Positions 39,759 to 58,030 of a stretch of 64,000 bases of DNA are shown here, one piece after another. Both the position numbers and the translations under genes were made by a program. Source of the DNA: Pseudomonas entomophila (lineage in GTDB: Bacteria; Pseudomonadota; Gammaproteobacteria; Pseudomonadales; Pseudomonadaceae); NCBI RefSeq assembly GCF_023277925.1, contig NZ_CP063832.1, positions 3,532,501 to 3,596,500 of the forward strand, read 5' to 3'. The notes under the pieces were generated by a model. That model was not told the origin of the DNA. It saw nothing but the letters and a program-made list of their open reading frames with translations, and ran no database searches. Within the stretch, counting starts at the first letter, position 1. Each line of letters begins with the position of its first letter.

Positions 39759-39769
39759 AAAGCCCCTGA

Positions 39770-40684
39770 TCAGGCAATCAACGCCTTCACCACGTCATCG
39801 TCCGCGGCTGCGGCGATGGACGCCAGGTACTGCCCATAGCTGGTCTTCTTCAGCGCCGAGGCCCGGGCCAGCAACTGCGCCTGGTTGATCCAGCCGTTCT
39901 GGAAGGCGATCTCTTCCAGGCAGGCCACTTTCAGGCCCTGGCGGTTCTCAATGGCCTGGACGAAATTGCCGGCTTCGAGCAGCGAATCGTGGGTGCCGGT
40001 GTCGAGCCAGGCGAAGCCACGGCCCAGCACGTTGACGTTCAGCGTGCCACGCTCGAGGTACGCGTTGTTGATGTCGGTGATCTCCAGCTCGCCACGGGCC
40101 GACGGCTTGACCTGCGCCGCGATATCGAGCACCTGGTTGTCATAGAAGTACAGCCCGGTGACCGCGTAGTTGGACTTGGGCGCCTTGGGCTTCTCCTCGA
40201 TGCTGATCGCCTTGCCCTGGGCGTCGAACTCCACCACGCCGAAGGCCTGCGGGTCGGCCACGTAGTAGCCGAACACCGTGGCGCCGTTTTCACGGCTGGC
40301 GGCCTGGCGCAGGGTGTCGCTGAACTGGGTGCCGTAGAAGATGTTGTCCCCCAGCACCAGGCAGACGTTGTCGTCACCGACGAACTCCTTGCCGATGATG
40401 AAGGCCTGGGCCAGGCCATCCGGGCTTGGCTGCTCGGCGTAGCTGAGCTTGATGCCGAACTGGCTGCCGTCACCGAGCATGCGCTGGAAGCCCGGCAGGT
40501 CGGTTGGGGTGGAGATCACCAGGATCTCGCTGATGCCGGCCAGCATCAGCACCGACAGCGGGTAGTAGATCATCGGCTTGTCGTAGATCGGCAAGGATTG
40601 CTTCGATACACCCAGGGTGATCGGGTGCAGGCGAGTGCCCGAACCGCCAGCCAGCAGGATGCCCTTGTATTTGGTCTTGTTCAT
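39770..40684 (-). CDS. rmlA: Glucose-1-phosphate thymidylyltransferase
   Basis: Makes dTDP-glucose from glucose-1-phosphate and dTTP. The 304-residue nucleotidyltransferase has the signature [20 protein letters not shown] (residues about 9-28), [25 protein letters not shown] and the sugar-binding [20 protein letters not shown]. The ATG at 40684 has AGGGAG seven bases upstream. It is the last gene of a five-gene operon with rmlB, a toroid protein, a glycosyltransferase and an acyltransferase. rmlC and rmlD are absent, so the dTDP-sugar may not be rhamnose, or those steps come from elsewhere. Confidence 0.95.
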
Positions 40685-40720
40685 GAAACAGCTCCCTTGA
40701 AACATGAATGAGGTGGGGGT

Positions 40721-41785
40721 TCAGGCAGCGTTGCCCAGGCGTTCCAGGCGGTAGGCGCCATTGAGCACGCGCTGCCACCAGCCACGGTTGTCGAGGTACC
40801 ACTGCACGGTCTTGCGCAGCCCGGTCTCGAAGGTCTCCTGCGGGGTCCAACCCAGCTCTTCGGCGATCTTGCTGGCGTCGATCGCATAGCGCAGGTCGTG
40901 CCCGGGCCGGTCGCTGACGAACTCGATCAGGTCGCTGTAGGCCTGGACGCCCTCGGGCTTGTTCGGCTGCAACTCCTCGAGCAGCGCGCAGATGCCTTGC
41001 ACCACGTCCAGGTTGCGGCGCTCGTTGTGGCCACCGATGTTGTAGGTCTGCCCCACTTCGCCACGGGTCAGCACGGTGTACAGGGCGCGGGCGTGGTCCT
41101 CGACATGCAGCCAATCGCGGACCTGCGCGCCGTTGCCATACACCGGCAGCGGCTTGCCGTGCAGGGCGTTGAGGATCACGTGCGGGATCAACTTCTCGGG
41201 GAAGTGGTGCGGCCCATAGTTGTTCGAGCAGTTGGTCACCAACACCGGCAGCCCGTAGGTGCGGCCCCAGGCGCGGACCAGGTGGTCGCTGCCGGCCTTG
41301 CTCGCCGAGTAGGGCGAGCTGGGCGCATAGGGGGTCTGCTCGGTGAAGAAGTCATCGGTGCCTTCCAGGTCGCCGAACACTTCGTCGGTGGAGATGTGAT
41401 GGAAGCGGAACGCCGCGCGGGCTTCAGGCGCCAGGCCGTTCCAGTAGCCACGGGCCACTTCCAGCAGCGTCGCGGTGCCCAACACGTTGGTGCGGATGAA
41501 GGCGTCCGGGCCCTCGATCGAGCGGTCGACGTGCGATTCGGCCGCCAGGTGCATCACCGCCTGGGGCTGGAACTCGGCGAAGATCCGCTGCAGGTGCGCC
41601 TTGTCGCAGATATCGGCCTGGTAGAAGCGGTAGCGCGGGGAGTCGGCCACGCCGGCCAACGACTCGAGGTTGCCGGCATAGGTCAGGACGTCGACGTTGG
41701 CCACGTGGCAGTCGGTGTTTTGGATCAGGTGGCGGACCACGGCCGAGCCGATGAAGCCCGCGCCGCCGGTAATCAAGATGTTCAC
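40721..41785 (-). CDS. rmlB: dTDP-glucose 4,6-dehydratase
   Basis: NAD-dependent short-chain dehydrogenase-type enzyme giving dTDP-4-keto-6-deoxyglucose. The 354-residue protein has [14 protein letters not shown] (residues about 7-20), [26 protein letters not shown], the [11 protein letters not shown] segment, and the YxxxK in YSASKAG. It is 43 bases downstream of the toroid-protein gene and 36 bases upstream of rmlA. The intermediate it makes is the branch point to rhamnose, fucose, 6-deoxytalose and amino sugars. Confidence 0.95.
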
Positions 41786-41828
41786 GCAAGTACTCCTGTA
41801 ATTCGTGTGGTGAGTCCGTTCACGGTGT

Positions 41829-44000: not shown

Positions 44001-44036
44001 TGCCCTCTCCCTGAATAATGCTGTGGATGATGTTGC

Positions 44037-45251
44037 TTACTGAGCCAGGCTGAGAATCCGGCTGGCGGCACGCTGGGCACCCAGGCCATCGGGTGCGGCG
44101 ACACGCTGGTGAGCACCGAAGTAGGTTGGCGCCGCGGTATCCTTGTCCAGCTCGGCGCCGATCAGCTCGGCAATCCGCGCGGCCTCGCAACCCAGGTAGG
44201 TCGGGAAGCCCAGGCGCCCCAGGCGGTCGAGCGCCTCGGCCTCGTGGTACTCGGACTTCGACGGCAGCACGAACAGGGTCGGAATGTTCAGCGCGGCGAT
44301 CTCGGTCACGGTGATCCAGCCCGGCGCCGACACCAGCAGGCTGGCTTCGCGCAGCAGGCCCATCCAGTCCGGGTAGTACGGCACGCTGATGACGCCTTCG
44401 CGCGGGGCGATATCCTGACGGCCGAGCAACACCATCTTCAGCTCCGGGCGCTCTGCGCGCAGACGCTCGAAGGCCTCCAGGTAGCCGTTGAGCAGGTTCT
44501 GCTTGCTCTCGGCGAACATGGTGGTGCCGCTGATGGAGGCGACAACGAACGGACCGTCACCCAGGCCCAGGTCGGCGCGTACGGTAGAGGCGTTGGTCTG
44601 AGTGAAATCACGGATCATCGGCCCAACGAAATGCGCCTTGCCCGAGTGCAGCGCGCTGGCCACCGGCGTGCCGTTGTCCATCTCCGGGATGTAGGGCTTG
44701 TCGGTCAGCACCAGTTGGCTCTGCTCGATCATCCACGAAAACTGCTTGTGCAAGGCAAGGCGCGCCCGGTTCAGGTCTTCGGCGTTGAGTTCGAAACCAC
44801 CTTCGCTCAGGTCCTCGTCGGTTAGCTGGCACAAGGTGAAGTCGTAGCGCTCGGTGACGAACACCAGGGGCGTGCGGCTGAAGATCGCCGCCAGGCAAGC
44901 CGCCATGTTGAAGTCGGAAATCACCACGCGAGGCTTGTGTTCCTCGATGATCGCCAGGTAGGCCAGCATGCGTTCGCTGGACAGGAACGTGTTGGAAATG
45001 TAGCCGGCGATATAGCTGCCCCAGTCAAGCTGGCGCGACAGGTTGCTCTTTTTCGAATAGTCCATCAGTTGCCCGGCGACATCGATCACCTCGATGCCCG
45101 AGCCTTCGAACATCGGGGTGAACACGTCCTGCAGCGAGGCCAGGGCCACCTTCAGGTCGATATCGGGGTTGCGATCCTTCAGGGCACGGCCGATCGACAG
45201 CACACGCATGTTGTGACCGGAACCGGTGGGTGCGGGGGCGAACAGAATCAT
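44037..45251 (-). CDS. GT-B fold glycosyltransferase (family 1/28-like)
   Basis: A 404-residue cytoplasmic glycosyltransferase. The N-terminal donor-independent half starts ILFAPAPTGSGHNMRVLSIGRAL (GSGH loop as in MurG/UGT-type enzymes). The C-terminal half has VVASISGTTMFAE, VPYYPDWMGLLREASLLVSAPGWITVTEIAALNIPTLFVLPSKSEYHEAEALDRL, the nucleotide-sugar-binding region. The ATG at 45251 overlaps the stop of the upstream acyltransferase gene (ATGA), with GGAGGA as ribosome site. The 59 codons upstream in frame belong to that neighbour. Its likely donor is a dTDP-6-deoxysugar made through RmlA/RmlB. The acceptor is unknown. Confidence 0.85.
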   Translation of the reverse strand: MILFAPAPTGSGHNMRVLSIGRALKDRNPDIDLKVALASLQDVFTPMFEGSGIEVIDVAGQLMDYSKKSNLSRQLDWGSYIAGYISNTFLSSERMLAYLAIIEEHKPRVVISDFNMAACLAAIFSRTPLVFVTERYDFTLCQLTDEDLSEGGFELNAEDLNRARLALHKQFSWMIEQSQLVLTDKPYIPEMDNGTPVASALHSGKAHFVGPMIRDFTQTNASTVRADLGLGDGPFVVASISGTTMFAESKQNLLNGYLEAFERLRAERPELKMVLLGRQDIAPREGVISVPYYPDWMGLLREASLLVSAPGWITVTEIAALNIPTLFVLPSKSEYHEAEALDRLGRLGFPTYLGCEAARIAELIGAELDKDTAAPTYFGAHQRVAAPDGLGAQRAASRILSLAQ

Positions 45252-46219: not shown

Positions 46220-46383
46220 CACACAATCCCTTGCCTGTTCGGATGCAGCGCGTGGTTTCGCCATGGCGAAAGTCAGACGTGCATCCCGGTTGCGAATCCT
46301 TGCATGGGGTGTCGCCACTCTGGCGTGACCTGCTGTCCAGGCCTGCCGATTTCGAGGGGTTAGAGCCGCCCTGCGAAGCTAAT

Positions 46384-46423
46384 AATGTACTAGTCAATTA
46401 GTACTGTTCGCATATCCTAGTAC
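46384..46423 (-). promoter_or_regulatory. GTAC operator of the acyltransferase-rmlA operon
   Basis: GTAC occurs at 46387, 46401 and 46420 (spacings 14 and 19). On the plus strand the core reads AATGTAC-N10-GTACTGTT, identical in layout and flanks to the monooxygenase operator at 56427-56466. A TACATT -10-like box is embedded at its minus-strand downstream end. Apart from this, bases 46220-46646 hold a 160-base leader, AT-rich sequence and the tetR terminator, and no gene. Confidence 0.7.
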
Positions 46424-46559
46424 AGACAAAATGCCTAGGCAACACGTTTTCTGTGCCGGTCGTTAGAAAATTTCAGGGCAGTCAAGATGCACAAAAAGGT
46501 TTCGATAATGTGAAAAATGGCTGAATTTAGCGTGGAATCTGCACAAAAATCCACAGACA

Positions 46560-46600
46560 CAGCAAAAACGCAACCGGCCACTCATGTGGCCGGTTGCGTT
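46560..46600 (-). terminator. Terminator of the tetR gene
   Basis: A perfect 15-base stem AACGCAACCGGCCAC/GTGGCCGGTTGCGTT with a four-base loop, followed on the minus strand by TTTTTGCTG, located 46 bases past the tetR stop. Confidence 0.9.
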
Positions 46601-46646
46601 GAGATAAACACAGAGGCTGGCCAAAGGCCAGCTAGCGGATGAGCGG

Positions 46647-47258
46647 TCAGTGCGCGAGACGATCCGGGACGATGGTGTCCCAATTGCCCATGGCATGGCC
46701 TGCCACTTTCTCCAGCGCATCGCGTGGTGAACCGTCACGCGCCACCATGGCCATGCCGCGCTGTACCACGCCGTAGTAGTTGGCCAGGCTCTCGCAGTCG
46801 ACATGCTCGCCGATCTCACGGCTGGCCTGCCCGAGGCGCAGGCGGTTCTTCAACATCTCGAAGGGCTTGCAGCGCAGCACCTTGAGCCCGACCCTGAGGT
46901 TGGGCAAGGGGGAATTGAGGTCGGTCTGGGTGACGAAACAACCGTGGGGACGGTCTTCACGGGTGAGGATCCTGGCGGTTGCCAGCAGGACGGCCTGGAT
47001 CGAGTCCTGCGCCCGTTCATACTTGTACAGCTCGCTCCAGATTTCCTCGCCAACCGTGGACCAGTAAAGCTCCAGCGCTTCGAGGAACAGGTCCTCCTTG
47101 GAGCCGAAGGCGGCATAGAGGCTGGGCGACTTGATCTTCATCACCCCCATCAGCTCACTCAGCGACGTGCCATCGTAGCCCTTGTCCCAAAACAGCAGCA
47201 TGGCCTTGACCAGCGCTTCGTGACGATCGAACTCCCGGGGTCTTCCACGACCACTCAT
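46647..47258 (-). CDS. TetR-family transcriptional regulator
   Basis: A 203-residue one-component regulator. The N-terminal helix-turn-helix is at residues about 10-55 (RHEALVKAMLLFWDKGYDGTSLSELMGVMKIKSPSLYAAFGSKEDLFLEAL). The C-terminal helical domain has the pattern of the AcrR/TetR subfamily with TetR_C-type GCF motif (HGCFVTQTDLNSP). Divergent from the flavin reductase/UbiC-like pair and separated from them by a perfect 24-base inverted repeat with core GTAC-N10-GTAC. It is the best candidate for the protein that binds the GTAC operators across 46.4-56.9 kb. It has its own terminator. Confidence 0.88.
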   Translation of the reverse strand: MSGRGRPREFDRHEALVKAMLLFWDKGYDGTSLSELMGVMKIKSPSLYAAFGSKEDLFLEALELYWSTVGEEIWSELYKYERAQDSIQAVLLATARILTREDRPHGCFVTQTDLNSPLPNLRVGLKVLRCKPFEMLKNRLRLGQASREIGEHVDCESLANYYGVVQRGMAMVARDGSPRDALEKVAGHAMGNWDTIVPDRLAH

Positions 47259-47405
47259 ATCTACTTCTCCCTTCTAACAACGGGTGGATCGCAACCTGGG
47301 CAGTCACAACCCGGATCCCACTGCGCCGCCCAGGCCACCCATGACCTGCAGGCCTTGCGCGGCAGGGCGTGCAGCGGCAATACGTGAACGGCGTTACAAA
47401 AAGAA

Positions 47406-47433
47406 TTGTATTGTACTAATACATCCGTACAAT
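47406..47433. promoter_or_regulatory. GTAC operator and promoter between tetR and the flavin reductase
   Basis: ATTGTAC (47410-47416), 10 bases, GTACAAT (47427-47433) is a perfect inverted repeat. For the plus strand, TTGTAT (47406-47411), 16 bases, TACAAT (47428-47433) makes a good sigma-70 promoter lying inside it. Binding would block both directions. The rest of 47259-47567 shows no gene. Confidence 0.78.
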
Positions 47434-47567
47434 CAGCGGTGTGCGAATGATATGCGGTCGCCTGCGGGGTACGTCAACCCCGGCTTACAAACAATAAGTC
47501 ATGGCGTACATGCATGATCGCCAAAGCTTTTTTAGCGAAGATCACTCACCGAAGGAGCGTCTCAGCA

Positions 47568-48065
47568 ATGGATGTTGCAACCTACAGAAATGCCATGGCC
47601 CGGCTTGGCGGCGCCGTCTCGATCATCAGCACCGACGGCCCCAGCGGTCGCCATGGCTTCACCGCGTCCGCCGTGTGCAGCGTCACCGACACCCCGCCCA
47701 CCCTGCTGGTGTGCATGAACAACCAGTCGCGCCAGCGCAGCAGTTTCGAAGAAAACGGCGTGCTCTGCGTGAACGTGCTGCGCGGTGACCATCAACATCT
47801 GTCGGGTATCTTCGCCAACAAGCACCTGGACATGGAGCAACGTTTCCAGGCAACCCCCTGGTCTATCGGCCACAGTGGCGCACCGACCATGGACGAGGCG
47901 CTGGTCTGCTTCGACTGCCGGATCAGCGAAATCCATACGGTCGGCAGCCACAGCATCTTCTATTGCCAGGTACTTAATATCGACAGCGCCCAGCATCCGG
48001 AAGGGTTGATCTATTTCGACCGTGCCTATCATCGCGTTGCCGCGCCCGACCAGTCCGCAGCCTGA
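47568..48065 (+). CDS. Flavin reductase (HpaC/RutF-like)
   Basis: A 165-residue flavin:NAD(P)H reductase domain protein (MDVATYRNAMARLGGAVSIISTDGPSGRHGFTASAVCSVTDTPPTLLVCMNNQSRQRSSFEENGVLCVNVL, the split-barrel FMN-binding pattern with TASAVCSVT and N-x-x-S). Such proteins supply reduced flavin to a separate monooxygenase. The ATG at 47568 has GAAGGAG ten bases upstream. The 22-base gap to the UbiC-like gene suggests one transcript. Likely partner in this locus: the acyl-CoA-dehydrogenase-fold monooxygenase at 55217-56368 and perhaps the luciferase-like enzyme. Confidence 0.87.
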   Translation: MDVATYRNAMARLGGAVSIISTDGPSGRHGFTASAVCSVTDTPPTLLVCMNNQSRQRSSFEENGVLCVNVLRGDHQHLSGIFANKHLDMEQRFQATPWSIGHSGAPTMDEALVCFDCRISEIHTVGSHSIFYCQVLNIDSAQHPEGLIYFDRAYHRVAAPDQSAA

Positions 48066-48087
48066 AGACTTCCGGAGAACACGCGTC

Positions 48088-48645
48088 ATGGACAATCTCT
48101 GGACTTCGCTGCCGCTACCTGGCCTGAGCGACGATCAAAGGCACTGGCTGTTCGCCCCAGGCTCGCTGACCTTGCGCCTCAAGGCGCTGGGCCGGTTCAG
48201 CATGGATGTGACCCAGCAGCGGATCGATTTCCCCGAACCCGGTGAAGCCCATGCCCTGGGCTGCACCACCGACAGCCCTGCCTGGATCCGTGAAGTGGCC
48301 TTGAAAGTCGACGACCAGGTCATGGTCTGCGCCCGCAGCCTGACGCCGATGCGCGAGAGCCGGCCGGCCTGGCCGGAGCTTGCCGGCTACGGCGCCGAGC
48401 CATTGGGCAGCATGCTGTACAACTCGCAGGATATTCAGCGCGGTGCTTTCGAATGCCAGCGCCCGCAGGCCGATGACCCGCTGTGGCGCCTGGCCACGTC
48501 GCTCGGCCAGCCAAACGGCAAGCTGCTGGCCCGCCGCTCGCGCTTCCTGCGCGACGGCCAGCCACTGCTGATCGCCGAATGCTTTGTCGAGCGCTTCTGG
48601 GTTTTACTACAGGAGAGGAGCGCGCCGCTGAAACTGGCGATCTGA
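48088..48645 (+). CDS. UbiC-like chorismate-pyruvate lyase
   Basis: A 185-residue protein of the chorismate lyase family, which splits chorismate to 4-hydroxybenzoate and pyruvate. Conserved stretches seen are WIREVALKVDDQVMVCARSLTP (the substrate Arg region), EPLGSMLYN and ARRSRFLRDGQPLLIAECFVERFW (with the catalytic-type Glu in AECF, matching Glu155 of E. coli UbiC). The housekeeping ubiC of pseudomonads is normally beside ubiA, so this copy next to a flavin reductase and a TetR regulator looks pathway-specific. The ribosome site is CGGAGA. It is convergent with the ArsR gene. Confidence 0.82.
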   Translation: MDNLWTSLPLPGLSDDQRHWLFAPGSLTLRLKALGRFSMDVTQQRIDFPEPGEAHALGCTTDSPAWIREVALKVDDQVMVCARSLTPMRESRPAWPELAGYGAEPLGSMLYNSQDIQRGAFECQRPQADDPLWRLATSLGQPNGKLLARRSRFLRDGQPLLIAECFVERFWVLLQERSAPLKLAI

Positions 48646-48676: not shown

Positions 48677-49036
48677 TCAGCCTTCTTCCAGGCGGGCTTC
48701 GTTGTCGCGGATGACCTGCGAGGTGTGCGGGTCTTTGTCGACGGCCTCGAGCAGGGAGCTGAGCAGGCCAGGGAAACGGGCTTCCAGGTCATCCCGGCGG
48801 ATCGACAGCAGGTTCTCACGGCCATAAGGGCGTTGCCAGATCACACCGCTGTCGCGCAGCACGCGCCAGTGGTGGGTCATGGTCGACTTGGAGGCACCTT
48901 TGAGGATGCGCCCGCAAGGGTGTTCTTCGCCATCGGAGAGGACCTTCAGCACAGTCAGGCGCAACGGGTTGCCAAGTGCTGTCAGGACGTTTTCCAGGCG
49001 GATCTGCTCGATGCTGGGGTGGTTGGCAGTGTACAT
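48677..49036 (-). CDS. ArsR-family winged-helix regulator
   Basis: A 119-residue ArsR/SmtB-type protein (IRLENVLTALGNPLRLTVLKVLSDGEEHPCGRILKGASKSTMTHHWRVLRDSGVIWQRPYGRENLLSIRRDDLEARFPGLL). The recognition helix is KSTMTHHWRVLRDSG. Only one cysteine is present and no CxC or paired metal motif is visible, so it is probably not a metal sensor. Closely similar stand-alone proteins are common in pseudomonads. It is transcribed from a 200-base upstream region holding a GTAC-type element and a separate inverted repeat. Confidence 0.87.
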   Translation of the reverse strand: MYTANHPSIEQIRLENVLTALGNPLRLTVLKVLSDGEEHPCGRILKGASKSTMTHHWRVLRDSGVIWQRPYGRENLLSIRRDDLEARFPGLLSSLLEAVDKDPHTSQVIRDNEARLEEG

Positions 49037-49444: not shown

Positions 49445-49454
49445 GAAGGGGCAC

Positions 49455-50894
49455 TCAACGTACAGCGTTTGGCTCAGGCTGGTAGCCGCCCCCCAACGCT
49501 GTGACCAGGCTCACCGCCGAGTCGATCTGCTTGCTGCTGAGCAGGGCCAGGCGCATTTCATCTTCGATCAACTGCTCTTCGATGTTCAGCGAGTCAAGGA
49601 AGTTGTTTTCCCCGACTTCGAAACGTTCGACAGCCAGGTCGAAGGACGACTGCGCCGTGTCGCGTGCGGTGCGTTGCAGGCCGATCTGTCGGTTCACCGC
49701 CTGCAACTCGGTCACCGAGGTCGCCACCTGGTGCAGTGCCGTGTTCAGCGTGGCGTTGTAGCCGGCGATCGCCAGGTCCAGGTCGGCGTTGCTCTGCTTG
49801 AGCTCGGAGCGCAAGCGCCCGGCATCGAACAAAGGCAGGGTCACGGTCGGCGCGATGTTCCAGAAGCGGCTGATGCTGTCGTTGAAACTGTCACCGGACA
49901 TGGCATGAATCCCGCCCCCGGCGCGCAGATTGATGTTGGGGTAGAAACGCGTCTTCACCGACGCCACGGTCTGGGTCTGCGCCTCGACCCGCCAGCGCGC
50001 CGCGACGATGTCGGGGCGGCGCCCCAACAGTTCGGCGGGCAGGTTTTCCGGCAAGGCGGCTTCGTCACTCTTGAGCGGCTTGGGCCGGGCGATGTCATGG
50101 GCGCCATCGACGCCAGTGCCCAGCAACGCCGAGAGCTGCAGACGGGCCACCTGCACATCGCTCCTGGCACCCAGCAGGCTGGCCTCGGCGCGTGCCACAA
50201 GGCCATCGACCCGCTGTAGCTGGGACTTGTTGTCCAAGCCATTGTGGAAGCGATCGCCAGTCAGGCTCTGCAGGTTGCGTAAGCGCTTCAGATCACGCTC
50301 GCTGAGGTCGACCACATCCCAGGCGTAGGTCAACTGGTTGTAGGCCTTGACCACGTTGGCCGCCAGCAGCAGGCGCGCCGACTGCAACTCGACCTCCGCC
50401 GCCCGCGCCTGGCTGACCGAAGCCTCCCAGGCGCTGCGCTTGCCGCCCCACAGGTCCAGATCGTAGTCGAAGGTCACGCCCAGGCTGCGCACGGTGACAT
50501 AGCGGTTGCCCTGCCCGGCGTAATCCTCGCTGCGCGACAGCCGCGAGCGCTTCACGTCGCCGAAGGCGTCCACCTGCGGCGCCCGGTCGGCGCCGTAGTA
50601 CTCCTGGTAGGCGTTGGCTTTGTCGGCCCGCGCCCGCACTTCCTGCAACCCGGGGTTGTTCTGCCAGGCCTTGGCCACCAGCCCGTCCAGCTGGGCGTCG
50701 CCGTAGCGCTGCCACCATTGCCCTTGCGGCCAGGGGGCGGCCGGCAAACGGGCGTCGGCCAGGGTGCTCGAAGGCGCGCCTTCGGGGGTCAGCAGGGTTT
50801 GATGGTGGTCGATGCCGGCGTGGTTGACGCAACCGCTCAGGGCCACCAGGGCCGCCAGCGACAGCGGCCATGCACAACGTGTGATTTTCAACAT
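49455..50894 (-). CDS. RND efflux outer-membrane factor lipoprotein (OprM/NodT family)
   Basis: A 479-residue outer-membrane channel subunit. The lipoprotein signal ends LSGC (MLKITRCAWPLSLAALVALSGC, Cys22). Two TolC-like repeats follow with W-x-x-Y-x-D-x-x-L (WWQRYGDAQLDGLVAKAWQNNPGLQEVRARADKA), FDYDLDLWGGKRSAWEAS and the second-half FYPNINLRAGGG. It starts four bases after the RND gene, completing a three-gene MFP-RND-OMF pump. Closest functional analogue by gene order and by the pump sequence is OpmD of MexGHI-OpmD, but the substrate is not known. Confidence 0.9.
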   Translation of the reverse strand: MLKITRCAWPLSLAALVALSGCVNHAGIDHHQTLLTPEGAPSSTLADARLPAAPWPQGQWWQRYGDAQLDGLVAKAWQNNPGLQEVRARADKANAYQEYYGADRAPQVDAFGDVKRSRLSRSEDYAGQGNRYVTVRSLGVTFDYDLDLWGGKRSAWEASVSQARAAEVELQSARLLLAANVVKAYNQLTYAWDVVDLSERDLKRLRNLQSLTGDRFHNGLDNKSQLQRVDGLVARAEASLLGARSDVQVARLQLSALLGTGVDGAHDIARPKPLKSDEAALPENLPAELLGRRPDIVAARWRVEAQTQTVASVKTRFYPNINLRAGGGIHAMSGDSFNDSISRFWNIAPTVTLPLFDAGRLRSELKQSNADLDLAIAGYNATLNTALHQVATSVTELQAVNRQIGLQRTARDTAQSSFDLAVERFEVGENNFLDSLNIEEQLIEDEMRLALLSSKQIDSAVSLVTALGGGYQPEPNAVR

Positions 50895-50898
50895 GCGA

Positions 50899-53800
50899 TT
50901 ATCCCCGTGCCGGCGCGTCGATGGCCTGGCCTTCAGTGCTGTCGGCAGGCGTAGGCTTGGGCTGCCTGGCGGTGCTGAGCAGGCTGTAGACCGTCGGCAG
51001 GATGAACAGGGTGAACAGGGTGCCGATCAGCATCCCGACGACGATCACCAGGCCCAGGCCGAAGCGGCTGTTGGCCCCGGCACCGGTGGCGAAGATCAGA
51101 GGGGCCAGGCCCACGACCATGGCCGCGGTGGTCATCAGGATCGGCCGCAGGCGCACTTCAGCGGCGTGGCGGATCGCTTGCAATTTGCCCATGCCGTGGT
51201 GCATCTGCAGTTCGTTGGCGAACGCCACCATCAGGATGCCGTGCTTGCTGATCAAGCCAATCAGCGTGATCAGGCCGATCTGCGTGTAGATGTTCAACGA
51301 GGTGTAGCCCAGCGCCAGCGGCAGCAGTGCCCCGCAGATCGACAGCGGCACGCTGATCAGGATGATGAACGGGTCGATGAAGCTCTCGTACTGCACCGCC
51401 AGCACCAGGTAGATGATCACCAGGGCAAAGGCGAAGGTCAGCACCAGGGTGTTGCCCTCCTGCACGAACTGGCGGGTATCCGACTGCCAGTCGTAGGTGT
51501 AGCCGGCCGGGAACTGCTTGGCCTGTTCGCTGAGGAAGGCCACGGCATCGCCCAGGGTCACGCCCGGTAGGGGGATGGCCTGGAAGGTCGCGGCGTTCTG
51601 CTGGTTGAACTGTGGGCGCAGGTTCGGCTCGACCTTGACCTTGATGGTGGCCAGGGTCGACAGCGGCACCAGGTTGCCGTGCTGGTCCTTGACGTAGTAG
51701 CGGTTCAACGCCTCGGGGGTCAGGCGATCCTGTGGTACCGACTGCGGAATCACGTCGTAGGAGCGGCCGTGGTAGGCAAAGCGGTTGACGTACTTCTCGC
51801 CGATCAGGCTGTTGAGGGTCTTGCCGATGTCGCTCATGCGAATGCCCATGGCGTTGGCCTTGGCCCTGTCGACCTGCACCTCGACCACCGGGTTGTTGAA
51901 GTCCAGGTCGCTGTCGACCACGGCGAACAGGCCGCTGCTGCGGGCACTGGCCTTGAGCTTGTCCATCACATCGAACAGCGATTGGTAGTCCTGGTCGCTG
52001 CGCACCACCATCTGCACCGGCAGACCGCCCGTGGAGCCCGGCAGTGGCGGCATCTGGAAGACGAAGATGCTGGTGCCTTCGATCTGGCTGACGCGTTGCT
52101 GCAGCAAGGGCTGGATCTGGTTGGCGCTACGTTCGCGCTTGTCCCAGTCGACCAGGTTGATGCCACCGACACTGTTCGACAGGCCGTCGGTGCCGTTGGC
52201 CACCCAGTCGCTGTAGCCTTCCGGGAACTCCTTGAACACTTCGTGGAGCTTTTCCGAGAACGCCTCGACGTAATGGATGTTGGCATGTTGCGGTGCCTTG
52301 ATCGCGGTCAGCAGGATGTTCTGGTCTTCCAGTGGCGCCAGCTCGCTCTGCGCCGATTTATACAGTACCGGCAGGCTGAAGAAGATCACCAGGGCGATGG
52401 CCAGGCTGATCCAGCGCTTGGACAACGACACCCCCAGCAACTTGCCATACCGCTCGGCCAACCAGTGGAAGAAGGCCTCGGCCTTGCGCGCCATGTAGCC
52501 TTCGCTGGACTTGGCATCGAGCAAGCGGGTGCTCATGATCGGCGACAGGGTCAGGGCGACGATGCCGGACACCACCACCGAGCCGGCCAGGGTCAGCGCG
52601 AACTCCTTGAACAGGGTGCCGGTCAGGCCGCCCATCAGACCAATCGGCGCGTACACTGCAGCCAGGGTGAAGGTCATCGCCACCACCGGCCCCGCCACTT
52701 CGCGGGCACCGAGCAAGGCGGCTTCGAACGGCGTCTTGCCCTCCTCGATATGCCGGTGAACGTTCTCCACCACGACGATCGCGTCATCCACCACCAGGCC
52801 GATCGCCAGCACCATCGCCAGCAGCGTCAGCAGGTTCAGGCTGAAGCCGAACATCTGCATCAGCACCGCGGCACCGAGCATCGACAGCGGGATGGTCACC
52901 AGCGGGATCAGCACGGTGCGGAAGGTACCCAGGCACAGGTAGATCACCAGGACCACGATCACCAGCGCTTCGATCAGGGTGTGGGTCACCTCGTCAATGG
53001 ACGACTGGATGAAGTGCGCCACCTCGAACGGGATCTGCACTTTCACGCCTGGCGGCAGGGTCTTCTCGATTTCCGGGATCAGTGCCTTGACCGCGTTGAC
53101 GATAGTCAGCGGGTTGCCGGTGGGCGCGGCGTCGAGGCCGAGGAACATCGCCGGGACCGCGCTCATTGCGCCGCTGGTGTCGAACGATGCGGCGTTGAGC
53201 TCGACGGTGCCGACATCACGCACGCGGATGATGTTGCCGTTGTCGTTGCGCAGGACCATGTCCTTGAAGTCTTCGACGCTGGTCAGGTCGGTGTTGATGC
53301 GCAGGTTGCTGACCACATACAGGCCTTTGACCTGGCCGGGCGCGGCCTGGAAGTTGTTCTCCTTGATCGCATCGGCCACGTCCTGGCCGGTGATGCCGTA
53401 GCCGGCCAGCAGGTCCGGGTCCAGCCACAGGCGCATGGACATGGTCTGGCCGCCCAGCACGTTGATCTTGGCCACGCCATCGATGCCCGAGAACATCGGC
53501 TCGACCACCCGCGAGATGTAGTCGGCCACTTCCGGCATCGACAGTTGCTCGCTGGAGAACGCCACGTAGGCGACGCTGGTGAAGCCGCCGGAAGTGCGCT
53601 CGATCACCGGGTCATAGGCTTCGGCGGGCAGCTTGTAGCGGATCTGGTTGACCTTGGCCATCACCTCGGTGAGGGCGTTGATCGAGTTGCTGTTGAGCTG
53701 CATGCGCACGGTGACCAGGCTCTTGCCCTGGGTCGAGCTGGACGACAGGTAGTCGATGCCCTCGACCGAGGCCACGGCCTGGCTGATCGGCTGGGTCACG

Positions 53801-53985
53801 AAGCCCTGCATCAGTTCGGAGGAGGCACCGGGGTACTGGGTGGTGATGGTGATGGTGGAGGTTTCCAGCATCGGGTACTGGCGCACCGGCAGCTTGGTGA
53901 ACGCCATGACCCCGAACAGCAGGATCAGCGTGCTGACCACCAGCGCCAGCACGGGCCGGCGCAGGAAAATATCGGTGAAATGCAT
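50899..53985 (-). CDS. RND efflux pump inner-membrane transporter (MexI-like)
   Basis: A 1028-residue HAE-1-type proton antiporter. N-terminus MHFTDIFLRRPVLALVVSTLILLFGVMAFTKLPVRQYP; twelve membrane segments; the proton-relay Asp pair in AIGLVVDDAIVVVENVHRHIEEG; two large periplasmic loops; GLISKHGILMVAFANELQ in the second half. The wording of the conserved segments is closest, from memory, to MexI of P. aeruginosa, which exports phenazine and quinolone intermediates, rather than to MexB/TtgB. It lies between the membrane-fusion and outer-membrane genes with gaps of 9 and 4 bases. Its position downstream of a flavin monooxygenase in the same operon suggests export of that enzyme's product. 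Confidence 0.93.
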   Translation of the reverse strand: MHFTDIFLRRPVLALVVSTLILLFGVMAFTKLPVRQYPMLETSTITITTQYPGASSELMQGFVTQPISQAVASVEGIDYLSSSSTQGKSLVTVRMQLNSNSINALTEVMAKVNQIRYKLPAEAYDPVIERTSGGFTSVAYVAFSSEQLSMPEVADYISRVVEPMFSGIDGVAKINVLGGQTMSMRLWLDPDLLAGYGITGQDVADAIKENNFQAAPGQVKGLYVVSNLRINTDLTSVEDFKDMVLRNDNGNIIRVRDVGTVELNAASFDTSGAMSAVPAMFLGLDAAPTGNPLTIVNAVKALIPEIEKTLPPGVKVQIPFEVAHFIQSSIDEVTHTLIEALVIVVLVIYLCLGTFRTVLIPLVTIPLSMLGAAVLMQMFGFSLNLLTLLAMVLAIGLVVDDAIVVVENVHRHIEEGKTPFEAALLGAREVAGPVVAMTFTLAAVYAPIGLMGGLTGTLFKEFALTLAGSVVVSGIVALTLSPIMSTRLLDAKSSEGYMARKAEAFFHWLAERYGKLLGVSLSKRWISLAIALVIFFSLPVLYKSAQSELAPLEDQNILLTAIKAPQHANIHYVEAFSEKLHEVFKEFPEGYSDWVANGTDGLSNSVGGINLVDWDKRERSANQIQPLLQQRVSQIEGTSIFVFQMPPLPGSTGGLPVQMVVRSDQDYQSLFDVMDKLKASARSSGLFAVVDSDLDFNNPVVEVQVDRAKANAMGIRMSDIGKTLNSLIGEKYVNRFAYHGRSYDVIPQSVPQDRLTPEALNRYYVKDQHGNLVPLSTLATIKVKVEPNLRPQFNQQNAATFQAIPLPGVTLGDAVAFLSEQAKQFPAGYTYDWQSDTRQFVQEGNTLVLTFAFALVIIYLVLAVQYESFIDPFIILISVPLSICGALLPLALGYTSLNIYTQIGLITLIGLISKHGILMVAFANELQMHHGMGKLQAIRHAAEVRLRPILMTTAAMVVGLAPLIFATGAGANSRFGLGLVIVVGMLIGTLFTLFILPTVYSLLSTARQPKPTPADSTEGQAIDAPARG

Positions 53986-53994
53986 GATCGTTCC

Positions 53995-55080
53995 TCAGCG
54001 CTGGACATTGAGCCGCACGGTGTCGGCCACAGGCTCGATGGCGACGCCGTCCTGCAGCTTGATCTGCCCGGAGGTCACCACTTCGTCGCCCGCCTGCAGG
54101 CCCTTGGCGACCACCGCCAGGCCATCGCGGCGCTCGCCAATACTGATGTTCTGCCGGCGGACCTTCTTCAAGCCGTTCTCTTCGTAGGTGACGAACACAC
54201 TCTCGCCATAGGCGTTGTAGGTGATCGCGGTTTCTGGCACTACCAGCTCATCCTTGCCCGGCAACTGCACCTTGACCTTGGCGTACATGCCCGGGCGCAG
54301 CTTGCCCTGGTGTTCCTTGAGCAGCGCCTGGACCTTGATCACGTGCGAGTTGTTCACCTGCGGATCGATGGCGCTGACCGTGCCTTCGAACTTCATGCCA
54401 CTCCATGCATCGACAGCCAGCTCCACGGCCTGGCCCTTGACGATGTTGGCGCTGTCACGCTCGGAAACGGTGAAGTTGACCCGCAGGCCATTGAGGTCGG
54501 TGAGCGTGGCCAGTGGCCGACCGGCCTGCACGTAGTCCCCCAGGTGCACCTGGCGAATCCCCAGCTCACCGGAGAACGGCGCGCGGATGGTCTTCTGCGC
54601 GATCTGCGCCTGGATGTTCTCGAGATTGCCCTTGGCCGCATCGAACTGCGCCCGCGCGCTGTCCAGCGCGCGCTGGCTCTCGGCGCCATTGCGCGCCAGG
54701 GCCTGCAGGCGCCCGTAGTGGGTCTTGGCGGCTTCGAACTCACCGCGCAGGCGCGTCAGCTCGCCCTCTTCCGGCGAGGTGTTGAGCCTGACCACCACGT
54801 TGCCGGCCTTGACCTGGTCACCCGAGTCGAAGGCCAGGGCGACCACCTGGCCGCTGACTTCGGCCGACAGCAACACCTGCTGGCGGGCCTCGATCTGGCC
54901 GATGGCAACCTGGTAATAGGTGTACGGCACCTGCTTGACCTTGGCCAGGGCCGCGGGTACCAGAACGGGGGCGGGCGCCGGCTCTTCTCCATGAGCCATG
55001 TAACGCAGCGTCAAGCCCCCCAGTACCGCAAGCGTGACTACCGACGCCGTTACCTTCCCTAGATAGTGTTTCGCCCGCAT
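53995..55080 (-). CDS. RND efflux periplasmic adaptor (membrane-fusion) protein
   Basis: A 361-residue adaptor with an N-terminal membrane anchor (LGKVTASVVTLAVLGGLTLRYMA). Its barrel-sandwich/lipoyl halves (YYQVAIGQIEARQQVLLSAEVSGQVVALAFDSGDQVKAGNVVVRL and APFSGELGIRQVHLGDYVQAGRPLATLTDLNGLRVNFTV) flank an alpha-hairpin (about residues 110-150). The beta-barrel and MP domains end VTSGQIKLQDGVAIEP. No lipobox is present, unlike MexA. First gene of the pump, 136 bases after the monooxygenase. The gap holds a 7-base hairpin (55156-55174) but no clear promoter, so transcription probably comes from upstream. Confidence 0.92.
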   Translation of the reverse strand: MRAKHYLGKVTASVVTLAVLGGLTLRYMAHGEEPAPAPVLVPAALAKVKQVPYTYYQVAIGQIEARQQVLLSAEVSGQVVALAFDSGDQVKAGNVVVRLNTSPEEGELTRLRGEFEAAKTHYGRLQALARNGAESQRALDSARAQFDAAKGNLENIQAQIAQKTIRAPFSGELGIRQVHLGDYVQAGRPLATLTDLNGLRVNFTVSERDSANIVKGQAVELAVDAWSGMKFEGTVSAIDPQVNNSHVIKVQALLKEHQGKLRPGMYAKVKVQLPGKDELVVPETAITYNAYGESVFVTYEENGLKKVRRQNISIGERRDGLAVVAKGLQAGDEVVTSGQIKLQDGVAIEPVADTVRLNVQR

Positions 55081-55216
55081 GACTTACCCCCTGTCGCCTG
55101 AATCGGCAACCGTCTGGAAATTCAACATTTAAAAACTCCAACTGCACGCTGCTGGCCCGGTCGGGCTGACCGGGGTTGCATCGGCTGAACGTCGGTGACT
55201 GGCGATGACCGCCAGA

Positions 55217-56368
55217 TCAATAGATTTTGCTGGTCTGCGCCTTGGCCAGGTACAGCTTGCCCAGGCCGAACAGGTTCAACGGCGACAGGACGAAGTGCTT
55301 GGAGCCGACATGAATGTCGCGCAGGCTGCGCTCAAGCGCGCAGGTCTTGTAGACCGCCTTGGAACCCGTCAACCCGTGCAGCTGGTTGACGGCATTGAGC
55401 GCGTGCTCGTTGAGCAGCGAGCCGGCCAACCCGACCCGCACGTTCATGCCGTCGCCGTCGGCCAGCTGGGCCTGGGTGATGGCGTCCTCCAGCAGCAGCT
55501 GGGCGGTGTGCAGTTGCGCCAGGACGATACCGGTCTTCTCGCTGGTCAAGGCGGCCACGCCCTCATCGGCGGGTACGGTGCGCTCGTCGCGGAAGTACTC
55601 CAGTGCGGCCTTGGCCACACCCAGCACAGTGCCCATCGCGGCGATGGTGCCGAAGTCGTAGTAGCCCACCTTGTAGGCCAACGAGGCGCGCGGCGCCGGA
55701 GCCTTCTTCAGCGATTCGGGGTCGACACAGTAATGTGCCGGCACGAAGACATTGCTGCATTCGAAGTGGTTGCTGCCGGTGCCGCGCATGCCCATCACAT
55801 CCCAGGTCTTGAGGATGCGGCATTCGCTGCGTGGCACGAAGAGCATGCGCACCTGTGGCTGCGAGCCATCGGCGACTTCCTGCTTGAGGGTGGCGGTACA
55901 CACCAGCCAGTCGGCATGGGCCGAGCCGCTGGCAAAGCCCCATTTGCCGCTGACGCGGTAGCCACCTTCGACGGCAATGGCTTCGCCGCCCGAGTGGATC
56001 GCGCCGACCACGAAGCCGTTGCACCCGCTATAGATCGCCTGCGCGGCCTGCTCGGGGAGGTAGTCGGCCAGGCGGCCCATGGCAACCTGCACCATCACCT
56101 GCCACGACACCGAAGCGTCGAGGGCGGCGAGGCGCTGGACGATCTGCGAGATGACCCGCATGTCCAGTTGCTGGCCACCGAAGGCCTTGCTCACGCACAG
56201 GCGGGAAAAGCCCAGCTTGAACAGCTCGGCCATGACTTCAGGGTGGGTTTCGCCGTGCTCTTCGGCGTAGTCGCGGTGCCGCAGGATCAGCGGCCTGACC
56301 GCCTCGATACGGGCCATCCATTCTTCTGCCTCGGCAGGCAGGTCACGCCACTGCATCAATGTCTTCAT
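55217..56368 (-). CDS. Acyl-CoA-dehydrogenase-fold flavin monooxygenase (group D, two-component type)
   Basis: A 383-residue protein with the three-domain acyl-CoA dehydrogenase fold (N-terminal helices RPLILRHRDYAEEHGETHPEVMAELFKLGFSRL; middle beta domain GGYRVSGKWGFASGSAHADWLVCTATL; C-terminal helices). It lacks the catalytic Glu and CoA signature expected of dehydrogenases and reads like the HsaA/DszC/HpaB-C2 class that hydroxylates aromatics with reduced flavin. The start at 56368 has AAGGAG six bases upstream. It heads the operon monooxygenase-MFP-RND-OMF and has a three-box GTAC operator about 60-100 bases upstream. The flavin reductase at 47568 is a likely partner. The substrate is unknown. 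Confidence 0.83.
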   Translation of the reverse strand: MKTLMQWRDLPAEAEEWMARIEAVRPLILRHRDYAEEHGETHPEVMAELFKLGFSRLCVSKAFGGQQLDMRVISQIVQRLAALDASVSWQVMVQVAMGRLADYLPEQAAQAIYSGCNGFVVGAIHSGGEAIAVEGGYRVSGKWGFASGSAHADWLVCTATLKQEVADGSQPQVRMLFVPRSECRILKTWDVMGMRGTGSNHFECSNVFVPAHYCVDPESLKKAPAPRASLAYKVGYYDFGTIAAMGTVLGVAKAALEYFRDERTVPADEGVAALTSEKTGIVLAQLHTAQLLLEDAITQAQLADGDGMNVRVGLAGSLLNEHALNAVNQLHGLTGSKAVYKTCALERSLRDIHVGSKHFVLSPLNLFGLGKLYLAKAQTSKIY

Positions 56369-56426
56369 GTTCAGCTCCTTGCTGTGTGGGATGAATCCTG
56401 GGTCCGTGTCGACATCGAACGAGGCC

Positions 56427-56466
56427 AATGTACGCATACAGTCGTACTGTTGCAACCCCCTCGTAC
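56427..56466 (-). promoter_or_regulatory. GTAC operator of the monooxygenase-pump operon
   Basis: GTAC at 56430, 56444 and 56463 (spacings 14 and 19), with AATGTAC-N10-GTACTGTT as core, the same arrangement as at 46384-46423. On the minus strand TTGCAA-N17-TACATT could serve as a promoter within it. Confidence 0.72.
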
Positions 56467-56617
56467 AATCTTTCTATAAAGCGTGTTTGGAAACTCTGGA
56501 GACAGGTATTCAGGCGTGAGCGCCGGCAAACATCAGGCAACAGCTTCGATCGGCGGGATATCTGTAGGGCTGCCGACAGAAAGGCACGGCGCCTCGCGCC
56601 GTGCCCTGGGGCGGGTT

Positions 56618-56803
56618 TCAACGTTCGTCGAAGGGGATACCGCCCTTGGCTTTGTCGCCGGGCGGAGCCTCGACGATCTGCACCACCACGTGCTCACGGG
56701 CGATCTCGAAGCTGTTGGCCACCGCCTCGGTCACCGAGCGCAGCAGTTTTTTCTTCTGCAGGTCGGAACGGCCTGCGGTTGCATAGACGATCACTTCTGG
56801 CAT
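56618..56803 (-). CDS. 4-oxalocrotonate tautomerase-family protein
   Basis: A 61-residue tautomerase subunit. After removal of the start Met, the catalytic proline becomes residue 1 (M-PEVIVYATAGRSDLQKKKLLRSVTEAVANSFEIAREHVVVQIVEAPPGDKAKGGIPFDER). The general pattern is that of the small 4-OT group, which enolises or ketonises unsaturated oxo-acids or phenolic products. The start at 56803 is chosen for Pro1 and for AAAGGAAA upstream. A longer frame to the left is non-coding. It is divergent from the luciferase-like gene across a GTAC promoter. It is probably a pathway enzyme of this locus. Confidence 0.85.
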   Translation of the reverse strand: MPEVIVYATAGRSDLQKKKLLRSVTEAVANSFEIAREHVVVQIVEAPPGDKAKGGIPFDER

Positions 56804-56885
56804 GTCGCTTTTCCTTTGCATGGGGTCCATGGGTGCCGCCAGCGGTGTGCCAGCGAAAGGACGATCATACGCCGGGGAAAAGGAG

Positions 56886-56913
56886 TTGAACAGTTCGCGT
56901 ACATGCGTACAAT
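56886..56913 (+). promoter_or_regulatory. GTAC-containing promoter of the luciferase-like gene
   Basis: TTGAAC (56886-56891), 16 bases, TACAAT (56908-56913) is a sigma-70 promoter with the same -10 word and spacer as the flavin reductase promoter. GTTC (56893)-N10-GTAC (56907) keeps the 14-base operator spacing, and an extra GTAC lies at 56899. Confidence 0.65.
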
Positions 56914-56944
56914 CACGACATTCGTCACACTTCAGGAGGCAAGG

Positions 56945-58030
56945 ATGCAATTTGGAATCTACAGCGTTGGCGACGTGACCCGCGACCCGACCACAGGCCG
57001 TATCCCCAGCGAGGCCGAGCGCCTGTCGGCGATGGTGCGCATCGCCCTCAAGGCCGAAGAGGTCGGCCTGGACGTGTTCGCCACCGGCGAGCACCACAAC
57101 CCACCGTTCGTGACCTCGTCGCCCACCACCCTGCTGGCGTTCATCGCCGCGCAGACCTCACGCCTGATCCTCTCCACCTCGACCACGCTGATCACCACCA
57201 ACGACCCGGTGCGCCTGGCCGAGGAATACGCAGTGCTGCAGCACCTGTCGGGCGGGCGTATGGACCTGATGCTCGGCCGCGGCAATACCGCGCCGGTCTA
57301 CCCCTGGTTCGGCAAGGACATCATGCAGGGCCTGCCACTGGCGCTGGACAACTACGACCTGCTGCACCGCCTGTGGCGAGAAGAGAACATCAACTGGGAA
57401 GGCCGCTTCCGCACCCCACTGCACCGGTTCACTTCGATTCCCCGACCGCTGGACAACCTGCCGCCCTTCGTCTGGCATGGCTCGATCCGTACCCCGGAGA
57501 TCGCCGAGCAGGCGGCGCGCCATGGCGATGGTTTCTTTGCCAGCCATATCCTCTGGCCCAAGGGGCACTTCCAGCGCATGGTGGCCTTCTACCGCTCGCG
57601 ATTCGCCCACTACGGCCACGGCACCCCGCAACAGGCCATGGTCGGGCTGGGCGGGCACATCTACGTCAACCGCCAGTCCCAGGTCGCCCGCGAACGCTTC
57701 CGCCCGTTCTTCGACAACGCGCCGGTGTATGGCCATGGGCCTTCACTGGAAGAGTTCATGCGCGAGACGCCACTGTCGGTTGGCAGCCCCCAGGAGATCA
57801 TCGACAAGACCCTGACCTTCCGCGAGCAGTTCGGCGACTACCAGCGCCAGCTGTTCCTGTTCGACCATGCCGGTATTCCCCTGCCGGAGGTGCTGGACAT
57901 GCTGGAGCTGTTCGGCAGCGAGATCCTGCCGGTGCTGCGCCGGGAAACCGCCAAGGGGCGCAACCCCGGCGCGGCCGAGCCGCCGACCCACGCCGGGCGC
58001 CTCGCCCAGCGCGAACAACGCGTGGAGTAA
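56945..58030 (+). CDS. Luciferase-like FMN-dependent monooxygenase
   Basis: A 361-residue TIM-barrel protein of the bacterial luciferase family (MQFGIYSVGDVTRDPTTGRIPSEAERLSAMVRIALKAEEVGLDVFATGEHHNPPFVTSSPTTLLAFIAAQTSRLILSTSTTLI, with GEHHN and the DPVRLAEEYAVLQHLSGGRMDLMLGRG segment typical of class C flavoprotein monooxygenases). AGGAGG precedes the ATG. A charged C-terminal tail (RRETAKGRNPGAAEPPTHAGRLAQREQRVE) is odd for the family. It needs reduced FMN from a reductase such as that at 47568. The substrate is unknown. It converges on radA with 15 bases between stops. Confidence 0.87.
   Translation: MQFGIYSVGDVTRDPTTGRIPSEAERLSAMVRIALKAEEVGLDVFATGEHHNPPFVTSSPTTLLAFIAAQTSRLILSTSTTLITTNDPVRLAEEYAVLQHLSGGRMDLMLGRGNTAPVYPWFGKDIMQGLPLALDNYDLLHRLWREENINWEGRFRTPLHRFTSIPRPLDNLPPFVWHGSIRTPEIAEQAARHGDGFFASHILWPKGHFQRMVAFYRSRFAHYGHGTPQQAMVGLGGHIYVNRQSQVARERFRPFFDNAPVYGHGPSLEEFMRETPLSVGSPQEIIDKTLTFREQFGDYQRQLFLFDHAGIPLPEVLDMLELFGSEILPVLRRETAKGRNPGAAEPPTHAGRLAQREQRVE

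Follow-up and report, generated by a model that had tools for sequence, protein, structure and literature searches.

The 64-kb stretch of Pseudomonas entomophila DNA analyzed here (contig NZ_CP063832.1, positions 3,532,501 to 3,596,500; referred to as the window) carries, between positions 39770 and 58030 in the numbering of the whole stretch, 15 genes that appear from their sequences to form a real, coherent, and co-regulated cluster. A first-pass annotation had described this block as one biosynthesis-and-export system of about 17 genes whose promoters share a GTAC-N10-GTAC operator. The gene families that it named are all present side by side, as open frames with family matches, although 15 genes are counted rather than 17. 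The idea of one system with a shared operator is supported, as both halves of the block occur in the same 15 Pseudomonas genomes and the operator is found in both lineages that carry them. Sequence comparison shows which genes make up the set, that they are inherited together within Pseudomonas, that they share an operator, and that this operator is linked to an ArsR-family regulator.

The left half of the block looks like a single operon that begins with HEX and runs HEX-GT-TOR-RfbB-RfbA, in which the HEX stop and the GT start overlap by 4 bases. It encodes an acyltransferase with hexapeptide repeats (HEX), a glycosyltransferase (GT), a toroid protein (TOR), and two enzymes of sugar activation. 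The right half encodes a TetR-family regulator, a flavin reductase, a UbiC-like chorismate lyase, an ArsR-family regulator, a flavin monooxygenase of the acyl-CoA dehydrogenase fold (MFO), a tautomerase-like protein, and a luciferase-like monooxygenase (LLM), together with a complete RND tripartite pump whose adaptor, permease, and channel all score above curated cut-offs. No core gene for a nonribosomal peptide synthetase (NRPS), polyketide synthase (PKS), or terpene synthase is among the 15, so that search tools relying on core enzymes may pass the cluster by.

Full-length relatives (E ≤ 1e-60) of TOR and MFO were sought in 398 Pseudomonas genomes, the best 8000 candidates being scored in the TOR searches by sequence and then by profile. 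TOR relatives occur in 15 genomes and MFO relatives in the identical 15, and the profile search retrieved the same 15 TOR proteins. The two genes lie on one contig, at most 11.5 kb apart, in all of them. The first-pass annotation had proposed this co-occurrence as a check, and with MFO as the marker of the other half it holds in 15 of 15 genomes within Pseudomonas. The chance of such a coincidence for two unlinked genes is about 2e-27, a figure that is far too small because the genomes are related. Rearrangement provides a better argument, as adjacency is kept in two gene orders: the gap between TOR and MFO is 11.2 to 11.5 kb in four genomes (lineage A, that of the window) and 4.5 to 4.6 kb in 11 (lineage B).

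Gene order was read in six members of lineage A (the window, L001, taken to be G127, L002, taken to be G711, L003, L004, and G190; L003 and L004 are readable only to the pump) and in six of lineage B (L005, G016, G029, G084, G571, and G731; L005 only to the permease), the remaining 6 of the 15 genomes being known through the TOR-MFO gap alone. In lineage B, HEX-GT-TOR-RfbB-RfbA is followed by an opposed LLM, a 3-hydroxyisobutyrate-dehydrogenase-like gene, the series MFO-adaptor-permease-channel-ArsR-UbiC, and an opposed flavin reductase. Thirteen genes are common to both lineages at 40 to 83% identity: HEX, GT, TOR, RfbB, RfbA, LLM (78 to 79%), MFO, the three pump genes, ArsR, the UbiC-like gene, and the flavin reductase. 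TetR and the tautomerase are matched in lineage A only and the dehydrogenase-like gene in lineage B only. The block is very probably one unit under shared control. The TOR of the window is 96% identical to that of P. entomophila COR5, which places the genome close to this species. In a class-wide sample of 369 genomes, full-length TOR was found only in the genome of the window, a second genome gave a single partial match, and no match was found in viral contigs. Protein matches to both TOR and MFO exist in Burkholderia. Moreover, a TOR relative (P0005, 58%) and an MFO relative (P0018, 67%) share one 23,889-base contig, which is probably one further metagenomic cluster close to lineage A.

Exact copies of GTAC-N10-GTAC occur three times in the window (positions 46387, 47413, and 56430), against 0.09 expected from shuffled sequences. 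As the first-pass annotation had stated, these copies lie in promoters, namely, those of HEX, of the TetR/flavin reductase pair, and of MFO, and to them is added one imperfect copy before LLM. The bare pattern is not specific, with 34 exact matches in the 5.76-Mb genome (about 0.4 per 64 kb); its context is. The exact operator precedes HEX and the flavin reductase in six of six lineage A genomes and MFO in the four of four that cover the site, while the imperfect operator precedes LLM in all four genomes covering it, with one base differing in G711. All five fully read lineage B genomes carry operators before HEX, LLM, MFO, and the flavin reductase (20 of 20 promoters); 19 of these were assigned to genes directly, and the MFO site of G084 was placed from coordinates.

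A weight matrix built from the lineage B sites alone was applied to the lineage A window, where the four sites rank 1 to 4 in 64 kb; none of 60 shuffles equaled all four. When the 34 exact matches in the genome are scored with this matrix, the three of the window rank 1, 2, and 5. The match at rank 4 lies at genome position 1540044. That at rank 3 (genome position 545977) falls within an open frame, judged by eye to encode a cytochrome oxidase subunit, and it was rejected as a further operator, being probably a chance occurrence. By eye, the palindrome spans the gap between a −35-like box (mostly TTGCNA) and a −10-like TACATT or TACAAT, with the last GTAC merging into the −10 box. The fit is poorer for the HEX promoter of lineage B. 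This placement reads as the geometry of a repressor site.

The regulator that uses this operator is probably ArsR. This protein is found in both lineages (73 to 75% identity in the 11 lineage B genomes), and at 73% identity or above it is present in 16 of the 398 genomes, which are the 15 with the cluster and G605, described below. The family is not confined to the cluster, because weaker homologues occur widely (in 160 of 398 genomes at E 1e-15, mostly 39 to 56% identical among the matches listed). On the metalloregulator model NF033788, ArsR scores 37.6, below the cut-off of 55. The first-pass annotation had instead placed the units under TetR, a view that did not hold for the conserved regulator: no orthologue was found in the five lineage B genomes tested (best match 30%, elsewhere in the genome), yet the operators of these genomes are intact and ArsR stays, so that ArsR is likely the common regulator and TetR an addition of lineage A. 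It is unlikely that TetR rather than ArsR binds the operator in lineage A. The perfect operator between tetR and its divergent neighbor would suit such a role, but it is ArsR that is conserved, and a 56% identical ArsR homologue in the genome G071 has sites of its own.

This G071 homologue lies 1.5 to 2.4 kb from two high-scoring matrix sites (24.5 and 18.7; the third scores 6.5), a pair that none of 200 shuffles reproduced. The locus carries other genes, and its TetR-type protein has no similarity to the TetR of the window, so that the protein near these sites lends TetR no help. The G071 locus is perhaps a separate small regulon that uses this operator. The two sites (L079 positions 7382 and 8261) lie before an esterase, as judged by eye, and before a gene with an export-signal-like start. 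In the Streptomyces locus described below, the top matrix hit of 30 kb lies 80 bp before the start of an ArsR homologue of 42% identity, an operator-like site that is suggestive only. The homologue in Priestia is 31% identical. For a paralogue in the genome of the window itself (2852086, 42%), no exact site lies closer than 100 kb. The LysR-type regulator of lineage B was rejected as regulator of the cluster, as it persists in G605 as flanking DNA, together with a TauE-like and an MdaB-like gene, both so judged by eye.

TOR is composed of two halves of different likeness. The C-terminal half matches the profiles of Rab geranylgeranyltransferase beta (8e-22) and of terpene cyclases, and the N-terminal half matches that of N-acylglucosamine 2-epimerase (AGE; 8h1m, 6e-5, residues 1 to 147). 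With hhalign, the N half against AGE gave 87% over 296 columns, and the C half, as control, gave 0.6%. The AGE family relies on catalytic histidines; its motif PGHGFEW falls mostly opposite a gap in the weak TOR alignment. The zinc ligands of protein prenyltransferase beta subunits are Asp, Cys, and His. Aligned with 3pz1, TOR has Ser and Val at the Asp and Cys positions and, in a second separate stretch, Ser at the His position. The D-x-D-[DT] motif (DxDD or DxDT) is missing in 15 of 16 TOR relatives, and its sole match (P0002, at residue 478) is not conserved. Because the zinc ligands and DxDD are missing, TOR is not called a prenyltransferase, cyclase, or epimerase, and the prenyl/cyclase-type step of the first-pass annotation is not supported. 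TOR thus shares toroid repeats with Rab geranylgeranyltransferase beta and the class II terpene cyclases but differs from them in these residues and in its fused epimerase-like N half; from the AGE family, which it resembles at profile level, it differs in carrying a second toroid and in that few relatives fit the Pfam model (2 of 16, at E 0.5). A new activity of TOR, if true, would mean an extra reaction in sugar or aromatic chemistry.

The remaining enzymes point to chorismate and sugar chemistry. The UbiC-like protein matches Escherichia coli UbiC (1jd3, 2e-9) and is a second copy, the housekeeping copy being located at genome position 4294187. On the chorismate lyase model of NCBIfam it reaches 48.7 bits, against a cut-off of 191, and the motifs W-x-R-E and A/S-E-x-F are conserved in housekeeping copies and in the cluster copies of both lineages. 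The conserved Arg and Glu correspond to the catalytic Arg76 and Glu155 of E. coli UbiC. Their retention supports the chorismate step proposed in the first-pass annotation, and a chorismate step recurs in Priestia. RfbA and RfbB score above equivalog cut-offs, which makes dTDP-4-keto-6-deoxyglucose a safe inference. The unit thus contains RmlA and RmlB of the dTDP-L-rhamnose pathway but not RmlD, for which the sole genome match over the cut-off lies at 4641609, about 1 Mb away; with RmlD elsewhere in the genome, rhamnose is possible as the final donor. MFO scores below the curated cut-offs of every named enzyme (128 bits on the HsaA model, cut-off of 450), and the flavin reductase scores below those of RutF and HpaC (154 of 206 bits for HpaC and 88 of 230 for HsaB). 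The predicted oxygenase and reductase pair works like HsaAB or HpaBC without being a member of these systems.

Relatives of the left half are found in other phyla. A tblastn search of 72,556 plasmid records with the Burkholderia TOR (E 1e-20) retrieved two matches, Priestia megaterium pFDU301B and Streptomyces sp. strain NBC_00354, and a separate search with the Priestia GT led to the same two plasmids. In Priestia, the order is HEX-GT-TOR-RfbB-RfbA-aldo/keto reductase-chorismate pyruvate-lyase, all in one direction; the five-gene order ending in RfbA is retained, and the lyase belongs to PF01947 (31.4 bits, cut-off of 22). The Streptomyces locus contains GT, RfbA, RfbB, HEX, and a frame-broken TOR. 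Also encoded there are aroC and DAHP synthase, an ArsR homologue, a transporter for aromatic acids, and an aldo/keto reductase, the last of which is unrelated to that of Priestia at E 1e-3. MFS transporters lie nearby. Of the window proteins, RfbA, RfbB, TOR, GT, HEX, and ArsR are matched in these loci (tblastn, E 1e-3), GT with 40% identity to Priestia and 41% to Streptomyces, and HEX with relatives in both; the UbiC-like protein, TetR, and the tautomerase are unmatched in either locus at the same threshold. What recurs in three phyla is sugar activation, glycosyl transfer, TOR, acylation, chorismate chemistry, and an ArsR-type regulator. A single MFS transporter annotated in Streptomyces (L047 positions 13905 to 17345), which would be a TOR-MFS fusion, was rejected as an effect of annotation, because the toroid match is in two pieces and the frame leaves toroid sequence before the transporter part. 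A 40-residue fragment in the same locus (positions 6778 to 6897, minus strand), 75% identical to RfbA and away from the full rfbA, is perhaps a duplication remnant.

The genome G605 (L077 and L078), aligned to G084, carries a lineage B locus between the same flanks from which much has been lost. The stretch from before HEX to past RfbA, the UbiC-like gene, and the flavin reductase are gone, the dehydrogenase-like gene is reduced to its first 74 bases and MFO to its two ends, and an ISL3-type transposase gene lies in the UbiC/flavin reductase gap. LLM, ArsR, and the three pump genes (adaptor, permease, and channel) remain open, with no internal stops over the matched ranges. Of the operators, that of LLM is intact, and those before HEX, before MFO with the pump, and before the flavin reductase fell within lost stretches. 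There were several separate losses, and they concern only genes assigned to biosynthesis. The simplest reading is that of a former producer that would have kept its protection, with chance retention as an alternative in this single genome. The presence of LLM in the remnant implies that LLM may belong to protection rather than to synthesis, and the remnant separates the probable self-protection genes from the biosynthetic ones.

The explanation that we favor, and hold to be fairly likely, is one specialized-metabolite cluster, for which we infer repression, each enzyme step, the class of the product, and self-protection as follows. The second chorismate lyase would supply 4-hydroxybenzoate, RfbA and RfbB would supply dTDP-4-keto-6-deoxyglucose, and GT would attach a 6-deoxysugar to the aromatic unit. 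TOR would then carry out a modification or ring-forming step on the glycoside, HEX would acylate it, and the flavin reductase and MFO would hydroxylate the ring, with the RND pump serving product export and self-protection of the producer. The ArsR-type repressor would sit on GTAC-N10-GTAC between the −35 and −10 boxes and come off once the product or an intermediate is present. The candidate product class, to which we give a little less than an even chance, is an acylated 6-deoxyglycoside that has a hydroxylated 4-hydroxybenzoate as its aromatic part and is exported. A more speculative extension, which we put forward tentatively, is a natural-product class that crosses phyla and lacks a core enzyme of the PKS, NRPS, or terpene synthase kind. 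Here TOR, as a two-barrel protein without recognized catalytic residues, would perform a new reaction on an aryl 6-deoxy-4-keto-glycoside under an ArsR repressor acting on GTAC-N10-GTAC.

Several observations weigh against the single-cluster explanation. TOR is without the catalytic motifs of its nearest families, leaving a central step unexplained, and the cluster does not encode the further enzyme, a reductase or another, that a 4-keto sugar requires. The HEX site is outscored by an exact match elsewhere in its own genome, 3 of 200 shuffles of the Streptomyces locus score as high as its site (against 0 of 2000 when the intergenic stretch is shuffled), and the matrix scan found no high-scoring operator in the Priestia promoters. 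The Priestia lyase is of another family, with no BLASTP similarity to the UbiC-like protein of the window, and the 30 kb of the Streptomyces locus showed no such lyase at all. G605 has no operator before its pump and retains one of the four operators. Furthermore, the halves separate at a distance: the RND pump, MFO, LLM, and flavin reductase are unmatched in either plasmid locus (tblastn, E 1e-3), and G605 is without the biosynthetic genes. Separation of the halves was what the first-pass annotation had expected to speak against one system; the left half does occur on plasmids without most of the right half, while the two remain united in the 15 Pseudomonas genomes.

This separability, with plasmid loci devoid of pump and monooxygenases and a G605 remnant holding only pump, ArsR, and LLM, also favors a reading of the block as two neighboring systems, in which the five-gene operon would decorate a surface or glycan and the right half would be a stress-induced pump with detoxifying monooxygenases. 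RfbA, RfbB, GT, and an acetyltransferase are typical of surface glycans as well, and the named acetyltransferase models nearest to HEX are those for sugars and polysaccharides. Such a division is nevertheless improbable, given the identical distribution of the halves across the 398 genomes, the adjacency that survives rearrangement, and the operator that precedes both halves in lineages A and B; the chorismate lyase adjoining the five genes in Priestia and a weak, below-cut-off match of the Streptomyces GT to the antibiotic GT domain PF21036 argue in the same direction. Phenolics commonly control pumps through ArsR or TetR regulators, and the nearest matches of MFO are the catabolic HsaA and proteins annotated as indole-3-acetate monooxygenase, as would befit an island for degradation or detoxification of plant phenolics. 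In such an island, MFO, the reductase, the tautomerase, and LLM would act on a phenol, which the pump would remove from the cell and which glycosylation and acylation would neutralize. We give this proposal little credence, as family searches found no ring-cleaving enzyme among the 15 genes, chorismate lyase produces rather than removes 4-hydroxybenzoate, and aroC and DAHP synthase in Streptomyces represent precursor supply. A prenylated phenolic glycoside (a meroterpenoid), with TOR transferring or cyclizing an isoprenoid, would be in keeping with the profile matches of the TOR C half, and 4-hydroxybenzoate is the usual prenyl acceptor. It is very improbable in view of the substituted zinc-ligand positions and the missing D-x-D-[DT] motif, and no prenyl diphosphate synthase was found among the 15 genes by family searches.

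The positions of the genes and operators are collected in Table 1. Directly after RfbA, an SGNH/GDSL hydrolase (38411 to 39760, minus strand) follows in all six lineage A genomes read, with 68 to 96% identity, and is unmatched in the lineage B loci read; it is possibly an A-specific deacylase. A glyoxalase-type gene and an ABM-domain monooxygenase (37534 to 38316) adjoin the cluster and are probably flanking genes; an ABM match of 29 to 30% also lies near the lineage B locus, next to an MdaB-like gene, so judged by eye. On the other side, past RadA, MscL, and Fpr, lies a LuxR-type regulator (61110 to 61817, plus strand), which G190 and G127 share and which has the look of a flanking gene.

Table 1. 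Genes and operator sites of the block, in window numbering; matrix ranks refer to the weight matrix from lineage B.
Feature	Position	Strand	Evidence or remark
RfbA, glucose-1-phosphate thymidylyltransferase, 304 aa	39770..40684	-	NCBIfam TIGR01207, 510.6 bits (cut-off 360.65)
RfbB, dTDP-glucose 4,6-dehydratase, 354 aa	40721..41785	-	TIGR01181, 508.7 bits (cut-off 365.1)
TOR, epimerase-like N half and toroid C half, 723 aa	41829..44000	-	PF00432, 139.7 bits
GT, glycosyltransferase	44037..45251	-	weak TIGR00661 and murG matches, below cut-off; no match in Pfam search of window proteins
HEX, acyltransferase, two hexapeptide-repeat regions, 323 aa	45248..46219	-	PF00132, 87.6 bits
Operator, HEX operon promoter, 167 bp before HEX	46387..46404		window rank 4
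Candidate second, imperfect operator beside the 46387 copy	46406..46423		window rank 5; also in G711
TetR-family regulator	46647..47258	-	PF00440; lineage A only
Operator between tetR and flavin reductase	47413..47430		window rank 2
Flavin reductase (RutF/HpaC type)	47514..48065	+	PF01613, 122.7 bits
UbiC-like chorismate lyase	48088..48645	+	PF04345, 74.7 bits (cut-off 23.6)
ArsR-family regulator	48677..49036	-	PF12840, 32.5 bits (cut-off 27)
Outer membrane channel of pump	49455..50894	-	TIGR01845, 373.2 bits (cut-off 210.05)
RND permease	50899..53985	-	NCBIfam RND_permease_2 NF033617, 1265.7 bits (cut-off 1250)
Periplasmic adaptor of pump	53995..55080	-	TIGR01730, 251.8 bits (cut-off 94.9)
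MFO, acyl-CoA-dehydrogenase-fold flavin monooxygenase, HsaA-like, 383 aa	55217..56368	-	PDB 2rfq, 3e-25
Operator, promoter of MFO and pump	56430..56447		window rank 1
4-Oxalocrotonate-tautomerase-like protein, 61 aa, Met-Pro start	56618..56803	-	PF01361, 34.1 bits (cut-off 22)
Imperfect operator GTTCGCGTACATGCGTAC (GTTC-N10-GTAC), tautomerase/LLM gap	56893..56910		window rank 3
LLM, CE1758-family luciferase-like monooxygenase	56945..58030	+	TIGR04036, 633.5 bits (cut-off 479.1)

As the first-pass annotation had supposed, no description of a cluster with this content was found in the titles and abstract starts of the open-access papers searched. Paulomycin-type glycosides (PMC4802897) share with it a chorismate-derived part, glycosyltransferases, and acyltransferases, but the portion of that source consulted mentions no toroid protein, unlike the cluster of the window. 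TOR, the operator sequence, and the regulator provide handles for finding such clusters. The chorismate lyase of the block resembles UbiC in family and in the retained catalytic Arg and Glu and differs in being a second copy within a cluster, in the company of flavin enzymes, TOR, and a pump. A joining of 4-hydroxybenzoate with sugars, like the one proposed here, takes place in the mycobacterial p-hydroxybenzoate pathway with Rv2949c, as in the p-HBADs. With the two-component flavin monooxygenases HsaA/HsaB and HpaB/HpaC, the block shares an oxygenase and a flavin reductase in one cluster, but here the pair scores below curated cut-offs and is encoded in separate units with one operator. The pump, finally, is a full adaptor, permease, and channel set like the RND systems of MexAB/MexGHI type, and it differs from them in being inherited with a biosynthetic unit under a common operator.

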